Shown one piece after another: positions 28,529 through 35,418 of a stretch of DNA of 44,865 bases. Location of the stretch: NCBI GenBank assembly GCA_903927465.1, contig CAIYMY010000055.1, positions 1-44,865 on the forward strand, written 5' to 3'. The notes beneath the pieces were generated by a model. The model had not been told where the DNA came from. It saw nothing but the letters and a program-made list of their open reading frames with translations, and did no database searches. Positions within the stretch are counted from its first letter, which is position 1, and every line of letters begins with the position of its first letter. Both the position numbers and the translations under genes were made by a program. Origin of the DNA: an uncultured Rhodospirillales bacterium (GTDB lineage: Bacteria; Pseudomonadota; Alphaproteobacteria; Acetobacterales; Acetobacteraceae).

Positions 28529-28626
28529 CCAGCGGCGCAGTCTCGTTTTGCTGCATTGCGGGAGGATTTTTCCCACCTCCTCACTTTACCCTTGCCCTGG
28601 GAAGTTTTTTCCCGGATAAGCCCGCC

Positions 28627-29997
28627 ATGCGTAGTGTTGAAGATATCATCGCCCTTTTGGGCGGAGCTGAAGCCGCGGCTGAAGGCTGTGGCGTCGGCAC
28701 GGAAGCCATCCGGAAATGGCGCCAATCCAAGGCCATTCCCGCCAAACACTGGCCTGCCATTCTGGCCGCCACTGGCCTGACTTTGGCCGATATGACCAGC
28801 GCACCCACCACCGAGACCCCCAAACCGGAGCCCCTTCCCATGGCCGATACCGCCCCCCCTGGCGCCACCGCCTGCCTGGTGCTGGCTGATGGCAGCGTCT
28901 TTTGGGGCCGTGGCTTCGGGGCCGAGGGCAAGGCCGTCGCCGAAATCTGCTTCAACACGGGCATGACCGGCTATCAGGAAACCCTGACCGATCCTTCCTA
29001 TGCCGGGCAGATCATCACCTTCACCTTCCCGCATATCGGCAATGTCGGGACGAATCAGGAAGATATCGAAGCGCTGAGCCCCGCCGCGCGCGGGTTGATC
29101 GTGAAGCAGGATGTGACGGAGCCAGCCAATTACCGCGCCACGCGCCATTTGCATGCCTGGCTGGTATCCCATGGCGTTCCCGGGCTTGCCGGCATTGATA
29201 CCCGCGCGCTGACCGCGCGCATCCGCGATGGTGGCGCGCCGAATGGCGTGTTGTGCCATAGCGCTGATGGCCGCTTCGACCTGCAAGCACTCCGCGCAGA
29301 AGCCGCTGGCTGGCCCGGGCTGGAAGGCATGGATCTGGCGAAGGATGTGACCTGCCGGCAGAGCTATCGCTGGGATGAAACCGAATGGGCCTGGCCCACC
29401 GGCTTTGGCCGCCAGACGGCGCCGAAATACCGCGTTGTCGCGATGGATTACGGCGCCAAGCGCAATATCCTGCGCTGCCTGGCTTCCGCTGGCTGCGATG
29501 TGGTGGTGCTGCCCGCAACCGCCTCGGCCGAGGAGATTTTCGCGCAAAAGCCGGATGGCGTGTTTCTGTCCAATGGTCCGGGCGACCCAGCGGCGACAGG
29601 CACTTACGCGGTGCCCGCCATTCGCGCCGTGCTGGACAAGAAGCTGCCGATTTTCGGCATTTGTCTGGGGCATCAATTGCTGTCACTGGCACTCGGCGCG
29701 CGCACCTTCAAGCTGGCGCGCGGGCATCGCGGCGCCAATCAGCCGGTGAAGGACCTGACCACCGGCAAGGTCGAAATCACCAGCCAGAATCACGGCTTTG
29801 CGGTGGACCCGGAAAGCCTGCCGGCCAATGCGAAGGTGACGCATATCTCTCTTTTCGATGGCACGAATGAAGGTGTCGCGGCGACAGATCGCCCGGCCTT
29901 TTCCGTGCAATACCACCCGGAAGCGAGCCCCGGCCCTTCCGACAGCCATTATCTGTTTCATCGCTTCGTTGAAATGATCGAAAGGGCCAAGGCATGA
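28627..29997 (+). CDS. carA: Carbamoyl-phosphate synthase small subunit with N-terminal helix-turn-helix
   Basis: The glutaminase subunit that supplies ammonia to CarB for pyrimidine and arginine synthesis. In the long form (456 residues), residues 1-56 form a YdaS/Cro-like helix-turn-helix ([20 protein letters not shown]), 57-71 a Pro/Thr-rich linker, and 72-456 an ordinary CarA. The GATase triad is present: Cys346 in FGICLGHQ, His430 and Glu432 in YHPEAS. An internal ATG at 28840 (MADTAPPGA) has a GGAG about 9 nt upstream and would give plain CarA of 385 residues, so two isoforms are possible. Nothing in frame interrupts the fusion. NCBI has, as I recall, a small domain named for such carbamoyl-phosphate-synthase fusions (carph-isopro). 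An SDR gene overlaps its stop; carB is 2.2 kb away. Confidence 0.92.
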
Positions 29998-30761
29998 ACA
30001 AGATGTTTGATCTGACCGGCCGTGTTGCGCTGGTCACGGGCGGCAATGGCGGCATCGGGCTTGGCATGGCAACGGGCCTGGCGAAAGCGGGCGCGACCGT
30101 CATGGTCGCTGGCCGCAATGCCGCGAAGAATGACGCCGCTGTTGCAGGCTTGCGCGCGCTGGGTGCCAAGGCGGAAAGCATTGCGGTGGATGTGACCGAC
30201 CCCGCTTCGATCACGGCGATGGTGGAAGAAACCGCCAAGCGGTTCGGCCGTTTGGATATTCTGGTGAATAATGCGGGCACGAATATCCGCAACCGCCCAG
30301 AAACCTACAAGCTGGAAGACTGGCACAGCATCATCAATACCAACCTGACCAGCGGCATGTTGGCATCCCAGGCGGCCTATCCGTATTTGAAGGCGCATGG
30401 CTGCGGGCGCGTGATCAATAACGGGTCCATGCTGTCCATCTTCGGGCTGCCTTTGCATGTCGCTTACGGCGCTTCCAAGGGCGGTGTGGTGCAGATGACG
30501 AAATCCACCGCCGTCGCCTGGGCCGCGGATGGCATTACGGTGAATGTGATCCTGCCTGGCTGGATTGATACGGACCTGACACGCAAGGCGCGGCAGGATA
30601 TGGCCGGGCTGAATGATAATGTGCTGGCGCGCACCCCTTCCAAGCGCTGGGGGGAGCCTGGGGATTTTGAGGGGGTGGCGGCCTTCCTCGCTTCCGATGC
30701 CGCGGCCTTCATCACCGGGGTCGCGATTCCGGTGGATGGTGGGTATTCGGTGCAGGGGTAA
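29994..30761 (+). CDS. SDR family oxidoreductase
   Basis: Classical short-chain dehydrogenase of 255 residues. The cofactor loop is [10 protein letters not shown] (15-24), followed by NNAG (92-95), catalytic Ser145, Tyr158 and Lys162 (YGASK), and the C-terminal [13 protein letters not shown]. The arginine after strand 2 (AGRN) hints at NADP(H). It resembles gluconate 5-dehydrogenase or glucose-1-dehydrogenase types, but the substrate is not fixed. Its ATG overlaps the carA stop (ATGA), so it is expressed with carA although no pyrimidine role is apparent. The AT-rich orphan gene begins 6 nt after its stop. Confidence 0.9.
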
Positions 30762-30767
30762 GGTGCC

Positions 30768-31409
30768 ATGTTGGAACAGGACAGACTTACTTTTCAGGAG
30801 CATTGGCTTGCTGTGCCGCTGGCTCTTTACGAGATGATGAAAAGTAGTTCCCTTGAAGACCCCTTTTTTACCATAGGCGACATCGCGACTCAGATTGGTC
30901 CGCGGGCAGTGCCGAGCTTTATCGTTCATTCCATATTGCTTAGAACTCTCGAAGATTACTTTAACCTAGCAGACTCGAGCAAAATTTCCGTCTCGGATTT
31001 CGACGAAGATACTGAAGTACAGCTTTCGTTAGACGGTTTGAAACATGTCGAGAAAAATCTGCTGCGTGAGTGCCGTGCCGAGCTTATGCATGCTGCCGCT
31101 AAAGAGTCTCTCACTTTGAAGCTCTTGGCAAACTTACATCATGCATCAAAGACTCTAGCCAGCAGAAGATCACGCTTTTGGAAGTCTGCTCACGCAACAG
31201 ACATCTACATTCCTGCTGAATCTTTATTCTTTGTGGCGCCCGATCAAGTCTTAGTTGAGCAATCAGTCAAAAGCCTTGAAGAGCTAGGCTTCCTAACTCG
31301 GTCAGAAGATGGATCAGTCGCAATTACCGAGAAAGGCATTATTGGTCTTGAAGCGTTCGCGGTTTGCATCGAAGCTGAACCAGAAAGCTTTGTCGATATC
31401 CGGCTATGA
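30768..31409 (+). CDS. Uncharacterised AT-rich orphan protein with winged-helix-like segments
   Basis: A 213-residue protein I do not recognise. By hand count bases 30781-31380 are 46% GC against about 63% in the neighbouring SDR gene, and codons such as TTA, AGA and CTT are common, so it was probably acquired recently. Two parts look like winged helices: residues about 30-90, ending VQLSLDGLKHVEKNL, and about 145-205 with KSLEELGFLTRSEDG and a wing-like VAITEKGIIGLEAF. The middle (about 90-140) is helical and basic (SRRSRFWKS). There is no signal peptide or membrane segment. A TAAGGTG ribosome site precedes the ATG. A transcription-regulator or defence-associated role is possible, but nothing proves it. 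Confidence 0.7.
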   Translation: MLEQDRLTFQEHWLAVPLALYEMMKSSSLEDPFFTIGDIATQIGPRAVPSFIVHSILLRTLEDYFNLADSSKISVSDFDEDTEVQLSLDGLKHVEKNLLRECRAELMHAAAKESLTLKLLANLHHASKTLASRRSRFWKSAHATDIYIPAESLFFVAPDQVLVEQSVKSLEELGFLTRSEDGSVAITEKGIIGLEAFAVCIEAEPESFVDIRL

Positions 31410-31498
31410 TTCAGAATTCTTTTCGTCTCTTAATCGGAATATTCTGCACTCTGTTGCTGACCCGTTCTGTTGACGCTTGACGCCAAGCAGATGACCTG

Positions 31499-32131
31499 AT
31501 GCCCACCCTCGAAACCCTGCTGATCTTCGCCGCCCTTTCGCTCGGCCTCGCCGCCACGCCGGGGCCGAATATGCTCTATCTTGTCTCGCGTTCTTTGGCG
31601 CAGGGCGTTGGCGCCGGCATGATTTCGCTGATCGGCTGCCAATGCGGATCGCTGGTCATCATGCTTTGCGCGGCAGCCGGCATCACGGCAGCGCTGTTTG
31701 CCATTCCCTATGCATGGGACGTACTGCGCATTGGTGGTGCCGCTTACCTTGCCTTCCTCGCCTGGCAATGCCTCCGCCCCGGTGGGCAGCCAATTTTCAC
31801 CGCACGCCCCATGCCACGCGAACCAGCATCGCGCTTGTTTGGTGTTGGCTTCGCCACCGCTGCGCTCAATCCGAAAGTCGCGATTTTCTATGTTGCGGTG
31901 CTGCCACCCTTCATTGACCCCGCGCTTGGCGATGTTTTTCTGCAAAGCATCACGCTTGGCGCGGTACAGATCGCCATCGCCATCATTTTCGATGGCTTGT
32001 TGATTTACGGCGCCGCCGGGGTTTCGCGCTTCCTCAGCGAAAACCCCACCTGGATGGCCGCACAGCGTTGGATTTTGGGGGGCGCGCTTGCGTTGATTGC
32101 GATCAAGCTCGCCACCGAAAGCCGCGCATGA
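31499..32131 (+). CDS. LysE family amino-acid exporter
   Basis: A 210-residue inner-membrane protein with about six hydrophobic segments. The N-terminal LGLAATPGPNMLYLVSRSLAQG carries the PGPN motif typical of LysE/RhtB exporters, and FATAALNPKVAIFYVAVLPPF is the second family block. Such proteins export amino acids (lysine, arginine, threonine, homoserine) or related metabolites; arginine would suit the car neighbourhood, but this is speculative. It follows the orphan gene after 89 nt, in which AT-rich sequence persists to about 31450 and contains the palindromes AGAATTCT (31413-31420) and GAATATTC (31437-31444). Confidence 0.9.
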   Translation: MPTLETLLIFAALSLGLAATPGPNMLYLVSRSLAQGVGAGMISLIGCQCGSLVIMLCAAAGITAALFAIPYAWDVLRIGGAAYLAFLAWQCLRPGGQPIFTARPMPREPASRLFGVGFATAALNPKVAIFYVAVLPPFIDPALGDVFLQSITLGAVQIAIAIIFDGLLIYGAAGVSRFLSENPTWMAAQRWILGGALALIAIKLATESRA

Positions 32132-32172
32132 ACCCCCCTCTCACCCTGATGCAAAACCCAAGGCCCTGAACC

Positions 32173-35100
32173 ATGCCGAAGCGCACTGACATCAAATCCA
32201 TCATGATCATCGGCGCCGGGCCGATCGTCATCGGCCAGGCCTGCGAATTCGATTATTCTGGCGCGCAAGCCTGCAAGGCGCTCCGCGCTGAGGGCTATCG
32301 CGTCATTCTGGTGAATTCCAACCCGGCCACGATCATGACCGATCCGGGGCTGGCCGATGCCACCTATATCGAACCCATCACGGTTGAGATTGTGGAAAAA
32401 ATTATTGCTAAGGAACGTCCCGATGCTTTGCTGCCCACCATGGGCGGACAGACCGCGCTGAATACCTCGCTGAAACTCGCCGAAGCCGGCATTTTGGAAA
32501 AATACGGCTGCGAATTGATCGGCGCCAAGGCGGAAGTGATAGACAAAGCCGAAGACCGCCAGAAATTCCGCAATGCCATGACCAAAATCGGCATTGAAAG
32601 CCCGAAAAGCGAAATCGCGCACACCATGCCGGAAGCCTGGGATGCGCTGAAAATCATCGGTCTGCCTTGCGTCATTCGCCCTTCCTTCACGCTCGGCGGC
32701 ACGGGTGGCGGCATTGCCTATAACCGCGAAGAATTCGAACAAATCGTCTCCTCGGGCCTGGCTGCTTCCATGACCAGCGAAGTGCTGGTGGAAGAAAGCG
32801 TGCTGGGCTGGAAGGAGTATGAGATGGAAGTAGTCCGCGACAGCGCGGATAATTGCATCATCATCTGTTCCATCGAAAACCTGGATGCGATGGGTGTGCA
32901 TACTGGGGATTCCGTCACCATCGCCCCCGCGCTGACGCTGACCGATAAGGAATATCAGCGCATGCGCGATGCCTCTATCGCGTGCTTGCGTGAAATCGGC
33001 GTGGATACCGGCGGGTCCAATGTGCAATTCGGCATCAATCCAGCCGATGGGCGCATGGTGATCATTGAAATGAATCCGCGCGTGTCGCGTTCTTCCGCGC
33101 TCGCTTCCAAGGCCACGGGCTTCCCCATCGCCAAGGTCGCGGCGAAGTTGGCCGTTGGCTATACGCTTGATGAATTAGCGAACGACATCACCAAGGTCAC
33201 GCCGGCGAGCTTCGAGCCCACCATTGATTATGTGGTGGTGAAAATCCCGCGCTTCACCTTCGAAAAATTCCCCGGCACGCCGGCCACGCTCACCACCTCC
33301 ATGAAATCGGTGGGGGAAACCATGGCGATTGGCCGGTCTTTTGCGGAAGCCATGCAAAAGGGCCTGCGCGGGCTGGAGATTGGATATTCCGGGCTGGATG
33401 AAGTGCCCATTCCCGGCGATGGCAGCCCGCAGGCTTTCCATGCAGCACTCGCCACGCCGCAGCCTGATCGCATTCTGATTGCGGCGCAGGCCATGCGCGC
33501 GGGCATGAGCGTGGAAGCGATTCACGAGGCCTGCAAATTCGATCCCTGGTTCCTGCGTGAGATTGAAAAACTGGTGCGCATTGAGGCCGATATCCGCAGC
33601 AATGGCCTGCCGCGTGACGCCACCGCGCTGCGGAGCATCAAGGCCATGGGCTTTGCTGATAAGCGGCTGGCAGTGCTCACCGGCAGCACCGAAGCTGATG
33701 TGGCCGCCTTCCGCACCAAGCTTGGCGTGATGCCGGTCTATAAGCGGATTGATACCTGCGCGGCGGAATTCGCATCCGAAACACCTTATATGTATTCCAC
33801 TTATGAAGGCGGTTTCGGCACGCCAGTTTGCGAAAGTCGCCCAACCGCGCGGCAGAAAATCATCATCCTGGGTGGCGGGCCAAACCGCATCGGCCAGGGT
33901 ATTGAATTCGATTATTGCTGCGTGCATGCCGCTTATGCGCTGAAGGAAGCGGGTTTTGAGACCATCATGGTCAATTGCAACCCTGAAACAGTCAGCACAG
34001 ATTACGACACGTCAGATCGGCTCTATTTCGAACCGCTGACGGCGGAAGATGTGATTTCACTCATTCGCAAGGAACAGGAAGCCGGCGAATTGCTCGGCTG
34101 CATTGTGCAATATGGCGGGCAGACGCCGCTCAAGCTCAGCCAGGCTTTGCACAAGGCAGGCATTCCCATCCTGGGCACCAGCGCGGAGGCGATTGATATC
34201 GCCGAAGACCGTGAACGCTTCCAGCAATTGCTGAAGGGGCTTGGCCTTAAGCAGCCGCGCAATAGCACGGTGCGCACGCTGGAAGAAGCGGCCGAGGCCG
34301 CTGAACGCATCGGCTACCCCGTTGTGGTGCGGCCTTCTTACGTGCTGGGCGGGCGGGCGATGGAAATTGCTTATAACCGCGAACAGCTCATGCGTTTTGG
34401 CGTGGAAGCGGTGAAAGTATCCGGCGAAAACCCGATCCTGATTGATCAATATCTGATCGATGCCATTGAAGTGGATGTGGATTGCATCGCGGATAAAGAT
34501 GGCAATGTGCATGTCGCGGGCGTGATGGAACACATCGAAGAAGCCGGCATCCATTCCGGCGATTCCGCCTGTTCCCTGCCGCCCTATTCCCTGCCGCCCG
34601 CCATTGTCACTGAATTGAAGGCGGAAACGGTTGCCATGGCCCGAGCGCTGAAAGTGCAAGGGCTGATGAATGTGCAATACGCAGTGAAGGATGGCGAAAT
34701 CTATGTGCTGGAAGTAAATCCGCGCGCATCGCGCACCGTGCCCTTCGTGGCCAAGGCGACCGGGGTGGAAGTCGCCAAGATCGGCGCGCGGGTCATGGCC
34801 GGCGCCCGCCTTGCTGAATTCAAGCTGGATGATGACGCCATCTACCGCCATGTCGCGGTGAAGGAAGCGGTCTTCCCCTTCAACCGCTTCCCCAATGTGG
34901 ATGTGATCCTGGGTCCGGAGATGAAATCCACCGGGGAAGTCATGGGCCTTGATGTTTCTTTTGAGCGCGCCTTCCTGAAATCCCAGCTTGGCGCCGGGGT
35001 GAAACTGCCGGAATCCGGCACTGCCTTCATCTCCGTCAAGGAATCGGACAAGGGCGCGGCGGTTACCCTCGCCCGCCGCCTTGCCGAAATGGGCTTCCGC

Positions 35101-35418
35101 GTGGTGGCCACCCGCGGCACGGCCGCCCGCATCCGCGAAGCTGGCTTCGCCTGCGAAGTAGTGAATAAGGTGCTGGAAGGCCGCCCCCATTGCGTGGACG
35201 CGATCAAGTCCGGCGAAATTCAACTGGTGATCAATACCACCGGGGGTGGGCAATCGGTTTCCGATAGCTTCGATATCCGCCGCAGCGCGCTGACCCAGGG
35301 TGTGCCGCATTACACAACCCTGGCCGGCGCCCGGGCCGCTGTACACGCGATTGCGGCTTTACGCGCGGGAACCCTTGATGTTGCGCCCCTTCAGGCATAT
35401 TTTGAGAAATCGTTTTGA
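32173..35418 (+). CDS. carB: Carbamoyl-phosphate synthase large subunit
   Basis: A 1081-residue enzyme that makes carbamoyl phosphate from bicarbonate, two ATP and ammonia delivered by CarA. It consists of two homologous ATP-grasp halves: one opening [20 protein letters not shown] near residue 9, the other [20 protein letters not shown] near residue 560. Each half has its VRPS(F/Y)(T/V)LGG loop. From about residue 949 comes the methylglyoxal-synthase-like allosteric domain ([19 protein letters not shown]), which in other bacteria binds UMP and ornithine. It is full length. It is separated from carA by three genes, while greA follows after an intrinsic terminator-like hairpin. Confidence 0.97.

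Follow-up and report, generated by a model that had tools for sequence, protein, structure and literature searches.

A Cro-type DNA-binding domain fused to carbamoyl-phosphate synthase subunit CarA, with paired candidate operators at the carA promoter

Why should a subunit of carbamoyl-phosphate synthase (CPSase) begin with a domain of the DNA-binding kind? The CarA subunit serves the synthesis of both arginine and DNA building blocks, and in the window analysed here (the whole stretch of 44,865 nucleotides, contig CAIYMY010000055.1 of an uncultured Rhodospirillales bacterium of the Acetobacteraceae) its gene opens with a helix-turn-helix (HTH) domain. An earlier note on this DNA, made from the letters alone, had pointed to a fusion in frame with no stop between the two parts, to a second start that could give plain CarA, and to a possible link between carbamoyl-phosphate supply and gene control. 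Absent from it were the paired candidate operators, the predicted promoter built around one of them, and a pyruvate kinase fusion that this genome also encodes. The comparisons reported below make it quite probable that long CarA autorepresses carA, acting as a trigger enzyme by means of its Cro-type domain, with a plain form made from the second start. The gene and its neighbourhood are laid out as follows.

28627..29997, plus strand: carA, long form (HTH-linker-CarA, 456 amino acids), a single ORF without internal stop
28636..28797, plus strand: NF046037 carph-isopro / Cro-type HTH, residues 4-57, by profile match
28798..28869, plus strand: Pro/Thr-rich linker, with residues 61-71 at very low model confidence
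28827..28830, plus strand: internal Shine-Dalgarno GGAG, from the sequence
28840..29997, plus strand: putative short form, plain CarA of 385 amino acids from the internal ATG at 28840, from the sequence
28870..29982, plus strand: CarA domain (TIGR01368) with GICLGHQ and HPE motifs intact, by profile match
32173..35418, plus strand: carB-like large subunit, name read from the sequence

The HTH continues without a change of frame into an intact CarA, as the earlier note had read it. Profile NF046037 matches residues 4-57 with 64.9 bits in the whole protein and 69.3 bits for the HTH alone (curated cut-off 38), which bears out the suggested domain name carph-isopro, and TIGR01368 matches residues 82-452 of the same 456-residue ORF with 457.7 bits (curated cut-off 307.35). 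Residues C346, H430 and E432, which we take to be the class I glutaminase Cys/His/Glu of CarA, are invariant among 31 aligned sequences. The proposed label 'YdaS/Cro-like' holds in its second half, on the strength of the predicted fold and Foldseek matches, and fails in its first: Pfam YdaS_toxin (PF15943) stays below its gathering score of 30, with 22.7 for the whole protein and 26.9 for the HTH alone. Pfam P22_Cro (PF14549) also stays below its gathering score of 30.2 (21.0 and 25.0, respectively). Three genes, by eye SDR-like, unknown and LysE-like, lie between carA and the carB-like gene (window positions 28627-35418).

Structure prediction gives the HTH five helices at a mean pLDDT of 83.6, with a recognition helix at about residues 25-34 of long CarA; in the full-length model the HTH is well folded, linker residues 61-71 have very low confidence and residues 108-167 are weak. 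The top Foldseek match is the N15 Cro-operator complex 6on0, and the best matches are phage Cro proteins. The first nine rows have E-values of 0.019-0.076, so the Cro fold is clear and the kinship distant; the modelled HTH has the all-helical fold of Cro and lambda repressor. Phage Cro proteins N15 Cro (6on0/2hin), Xfaso1 Cro (3bd1) and P22 Cro (1rzs) have a five-helix fold like that of the CarA HTH, and five helices are described for N15 Cro (PMC4997575). These are stand-alone proteins, whereas the Cro-type domain of CarA is fused and scores below the P22_Cro cut-off. The same genome also encodes a stand-alone carph-isopro protein (L009:1372-1839), divergent from a gene that is CI/LexA-like by eye; this may be a prophage cro.

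The fusion is widespread in the order. Counting any protein, NF046037 matches in 389 of 395 genomes, over its cut-off in 387, compared with 0 of 14 control genomes over cut-off. Genome G332 has a plain CarA and yet an NF046037 match, so that 387 is an upper figure for the CarA fusion. Eight genomes have no match over the cut-off. Of these, G026, G147 and G310 (the last at a contig edge) have plain CarA, G364 and G260 have carA cut by contig ends, no carA was found in G357 or G385, and the HTH frame of G383 is broken in the assembly. At the level of loci, 80 of which are the best 80 of 357 relatives (public records named, for example, Roseomonas, Neoroseomonas and Belnapia), the HTH frame was obtained in 172 of 176, L121, L124, L203 and L235 not being parsed. 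The CarA motif NGPGDP stands in the HTH frame in 164 of these 172; three others, of full length, have a variant motif, and five are cut or too short to tell. Outside the order, no CarA fusion occurs among loci read from 240 genomes of the class. On a tree of the 113 rows left after reduction of 166, which also served for the linker counts below, the window groups beside Roseomonas MAG rows L106 and L108. A comparison of codons between the window and six relatives finds HTH changes to be mostly synonymous, as in CarA (15 synonymous and 3 non-synonymous against L106), and the linker to be without constraint; by this measure the HTH codons are under purifying selection like those of CarA. The HTH frame is kept across the surveyed relatives, and its loss in close relatives, which the earlier note had held to speak against its reading, was not seen. 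In G421, three equal-scoring copies of the domain (G421:C1:1546, 4140 and 4597476) lie near both ends of a single-contig genome, perhaps as a terminal repeat or an assembly effect.

The second start is present as described, with GGAG at 28827-28830, ATG at 28840 and the frame intact for a 385-residue CarA. Across the 113 non-redundant loci, 88 have a Met inside the linker and 75 have a Shine-Dalgarno of at least 4 nt before one, a recurrence that makes it likely, as far as gene sequences can tell, that long and short CarA are both made, in keeping with the two forms that had been suggested. Linker positions are occupied by Met about five times as often as positions in the HTH or CarA, and a Shine-Dalgarno precedes 65% of the 117 internal Mets compared with 12.6% of other linker codons. 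In G026, by eye, the HTH-less CarA starts at a Met that corresponds to the linker Met of its sister loci (L036, for example). The linker Met is absent in 25 of the 113 loci, so the short form is not universal.

One could suppose that only short CarA is abundant, the HTH region being a translated regulatory leader or a relic. A Shine-Dalgarno of at least 4 nt is indeed rare at the HTH-start ATG (17%) and usual at the internal ATG, but the selection on HTH codons, the placing of the predicted -10 element for a leaderless start (see below) and the 25 loci without a linker Met (the only start codon checked) make this reading very improbable.

If long CarA acts on DNA, sites would be expected near its own gene, and the region upstream of the HTH carries two candidates around a predicted promoter.

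28560..28574, no strand: distal candidate operator O2, GGGAGGATTTTTCCC, with one mismatch to GGGAA-N5-TTCCC, by sequence and comparison
28592..28597, plus strand: predicted -35 hexamer TTGCCC; in 81 of 89 aligned loci TTG keeps precisely this distance from the operator
28599..28613, no strand: proximal candidate operator O1, GGGAAGTTTTTTCCC, within the 17-bp spacer (28598-28614) of the predicted promoter
28615..28620, plus strand: predicted -10 hexamer GATAAG, by sequence and alignment

Among 125 non-redundant carA fusions (upstream DNA less than 80% alike), exactly two GGGAA-N5-TTCCC sites with at most one mismatch lie within 200 bp in 101, one in 10 and none in 14. Markov shuffles give at least one site in 1.5% and two sites in 0.03%, and far-upstream control windows have at least one in 10 of 375. 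The two sites are 37-40 bp apart in 83 of the 101 two-site loci, which is not a whole number of helical turns; in the window O2 lies 39 bp upstream of O1. Within 400 bp before the CarA domain, a site is found in 99 of 113 fusions vs 0 of 27 HTH-less carA genes from other alphaproteobacterial families (28 loci among 30 returned for 46 matching genomes, less L392, which was not parsed). The operators of phage N15 are described as TA-N10-TA (PMC4997575), a pattern different from that of the carA sites.

A GGAA-N5-TTCC site ends 9-20 nt before the ATG in 89 of the 113 loci. When these 89 are aligned on the proximal site, TTG falls at exactly -7 in 81 and a TA-rich stretch follows the site. Transcription is expected to start about 7 nt downstream of a -10 hexamer. 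The alignment therefore suggests that O1 fills the 17-bp spacer and that the ATG sits at the expected transcription start; the predicted start at or near the HTH ATG at 28627 leads us to expect a leaderless mRNA. The spacer-type site is missing in the other 24 loci, where sites lie further upstream (for example L032, L033 and L035-L037) or the motif was not found. Candidate binding sites are thereby present at the promoter presumed to be controlled, as the trigger-enzyme model requires.

The same geometry might serve activation, for example if the HTH were to bend or untwist the promoter at its spacer, or if polymerase were recruited from O2. O1 does sit in the promoter spacer, which MerR-type activators use, and O2 lies upstream of the -35 hexamer. 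Against this, a spacer of the usual 17 bp next to a TTG -35 would need no realignment of the promoter, and Cro-like proteins are mostly repressors; that sites are missing where the HTH is missing would be expected under either sign. We therefore regard activation of carA as unlikely and favour autorepression.

Do the sites follow the HTH? Within the order, plain-CarA relatives G026, G147 and G332 have neither HTH nor sites; the upstream regions of the latter two, which belong to one genus (L071/L072), were read by eye, and a blind pair test found no significant palindrome pair there. G383 is a counter-case, as it retains the sites despite its broken HTH frame. Of 15 unique loci without the consensus, 11 have a WRS-type recognition helix and CGGAA-N5-TTCCG in place of the GGGAA type; nine of them match it exactly, and the other two, L040 and L221, have one mismatch. 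This pairing of a recognition-helix change with a half-site change in the WRS clade is suggestive rather than statistical proof: on the tree the helix change from Q to S and the half-site change form one event, and an independent-pairs test is without power. The tree has two further changes to C-type sites, one in L026/L214, which differ at the residue preceding Thr-25, and one in L194. C-type sites go with a retained Q in L026, L214 and L219, and in L194 an ordinary helix goes with a C-leaning site, so the recognition code is not one residue. A single-residue Q-to-S code was accordingly rejected, because it leaves some C-type sites unexplained and gains no independent support from the tree test.

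Related domains precede other enzymes. In the same genome (G000:C115; L010, L266:1501-3153), pyruvate kinase carries an N-terminal HTH that scores 27.4 bits, below the NF046037 cut-off; this gene has CTTA-type palindromes of its own and an internal AGGAG-ATG. Of 100 genomes sampled from the order, 14 have a pyruvate kinase fusion. In each of the 12 loci parsed (out of 14), CTTAC-N5-GTAAG-like sites with at most two mismatches precede the gene; 7 of the 12 have two sites, and the proximal site mostly lies 8-9 nt upstream of the ATG. Such a site precedes 0 of 16 HTH-less pyruvate kinases. At L286 the search match of a pyruvate kinase extends into the HTH region, which contains stop codons, perhaps marking a fusion remnant.

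Elsewhere in Alphaproteobacteria, fusion partners of the domain are PyrB, ArgB, a HisZ-like protein, SerA, PdhA, Ccr and NAD(P)HX epimerase/dehydratase (Nnr), with the HTH below the NF046037 cut-off in L306 (ArgB), L309 (HisZ-like) and L255 (PdhA); for the L309 protein the best NCBIfam matches are to HisZ, below their cut-offs. Another class of the phylum contributes a fusion to LeuA (2-isopropylmalate synthase; L399, 68.2 bits to NF046037, in a 1.8-Mb genome). By sequence, the domain family and its near relatives are fused to at least 10 enzyme types.

Candidate operators of the 5-5-5 geometry accompany six of these, namely CarA, pyruvate kinase, ArgB, PyrB, HisZ-like and Nnr, where for the enzymes other than CarA the half-sites counted, like the blind-test representatives, were picked after viewing the upstream DNA. 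ArgB fusions have TTACT-type paired sites in 3 of 5 loci; PyrB fusions have TTGCG-type sites in 3 of 3 (paired in one, single in two); HisZ-like fusions have TTCAT-type sites in 3 of 4, with clear pairs in two and two-mismatch sites in the third; Nnr fusions have TACGT-type single sites in 7 of 8, without pairs. The blind pair test, whose p-value cannot fall below 1/61, gave p of at most 0.05 for CarA in 4 of 4, pyruvate kinase 2 of 3, ArgB 2 of 3, PyrB 1 of 3, HisZ-like 1 of 4 and controls 0 of 8. It found no 5-5-5 pair for Nnr (0 of 4), Ccr (0 of 20), SerA, PdhA or LeuA (0 of 1 each), nor at HisZ-like L249 and L253, ArgB L307, pyruvate kinase L266, or PyrB L304 and L305; ArgB L254, outside the test sample, has no TTACT site. 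By plain count, 11 of 20 Ccr loci have a site of different geometry, CGTCAA-N13-TTGACG with at most one mismatch.

These fusions bear on whether a separate regulator binds the palindromes while the HTH serves elsewhere, for example in nucleoid tethering or subunit assembly. The sites are known from comparison only, some HTH-enzyme fusions (Ccr, SerA) are without such pairs, and G383 has sites with a broken HTH frame. That the sites are absent from all 27 parsed HTH-less carA genes and from the three plain-CarA relatives inside the order speaks for the HTH itself, as does a half-site that differs per HTH (pyruvate kinase and CarA in one genome) on a constant 5-5-5 geometry. A separate regulator seems to us improbable, more so than activation, and binding of the sites by the CarA HTH remains the reading we prefer.

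How far would such control reach? The whole genome holds four exact GGGAA-N5-TTCCC sites, the other three of which lie inside genes whose names, read from sequence, are CorC-like, D-aminoacylase-like and MutL-like. The proposed link between carbamoyl-phosphate supply and gene control thus narrows in this genome to autoregulation of carA. With at most one mismatch the genome has 115 sites, not above the 150 of a reversed-pattern control; the window has 21 sites with at most two mismatches, compared with 23.8 by chance; and the 1.3 kb before the carB-like gene holds no operator-like site with at most two mismatches. As these genome and window counts do not exceed their controls, a wider regulon was rejected and is not claimed.

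The proposed course of events is as follows. The mRNA would begin at or near the ATG at 28627, and its first reading would give long CarA, with the Cro-type HTH on a flexible tether. CarA/CPSase oligomers would bring HTHs into pairs able to bind O1, in the -35/-10 spacer, and O2; bound long CarA would exclude RNA polymerase, and carA would be repressed when the enzyme is plentiful. The second start at 28840 would give plain CarA and leave the HTH on only part of the enzyme, so that the share of HTH-bearing subunits could be set. Binding as such, its repressive sign, the presence of both forms in cells and any control by metabolites are inferred. It is a guess, by analogy, that the oligomeric state of CPSase tunes HTH binding: ornithine favours the tetramer of E. 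coli CPSase and UMP the heterodimer, according to PMC6245113. If that holds here, UMP would relieve repression, and the sign of control is for this reason not obvious.

Enzymes that double as transcription factors, as proposed for long CarA, are known as trigger enzymes; PutA, which binds the putA-putP spacer and represses there, is one, and BirA and NadR are others (PMC8249747). The CarA design would follow the same principle. It differs from PutA-type enzymes as described in PMC8249747 in its Cro-type domain, which sits on biosynthetic enzymes, in the candidate operator within the promoter spacer and in the internal start for the plain enzyme. The E. coli genes for carbamoyl-phosphate synthase, carAB, are likewise acted on at the level of transcription by enzymes, in that case PepA and PyrH (PMC6245113), whereas here CarA itself bears the DNA-binding domain. 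For NF046037, the NCBIfam entry supplied a domain name and no function was seen for it; literature searches found no paper with the name carph-isopro or the accession NF046037, and none on these fusions or their function. The LeuA fusion L399, at 68.2 bits, probably explains the name carph-isopro, which suggests that the curators saw CarA and LeuA fusions.

Self-regulating enzymes, PutA for example, have become known one at a time, and here one domain family extends across many enzyme types, with carA candidate operators that span most of an order. This gives a ready hypothesis for how acetic acid bacteria and their relatives control carbamoyl-phosphate synthesis, and offers natural recognition-helix/half-site pairs and directly testable probes. 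Carbamoyl-phosphate synthase, ArgB, HisZ, LeuA, SerA and pyruvate kinase are known feedback-controlled steps. More tentatively, the design may be recurrent: enzymes of biosynthesis and central metabolism would each have taken up a Cro-type HTH and become repressors of their own genes, so that DNA binding would report their allosteric and oligomeric state. In the case of CarA, an (alpha beta)4 CPSase would carry four HTHs, one for each of the four half-sites in O1 and O2, ornithine or UMP would tune repression, and internal starts would set the HTH share. We hold this broader scheme to be possible, at rather less than even chances.

Two groups of loci show other features around the domain. Loci L310-L329, from one order, encode Ccr (crotonyl-CoA carboxylase/reductase)-type fusions, L312 having been checked by HMM, and AACAC elements recur in their promoters. 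In most of L077-L104, and in L248, L250, L256, L257, L264 and L265, all from other alphaproteobacterial families, the domain precedes a low-complexity part and a transmembrane-like segment, an arrangement that would place a domain of DNA-binding type on a membrane protein, and these proteins resemble mitofilin-like proteins by eye.
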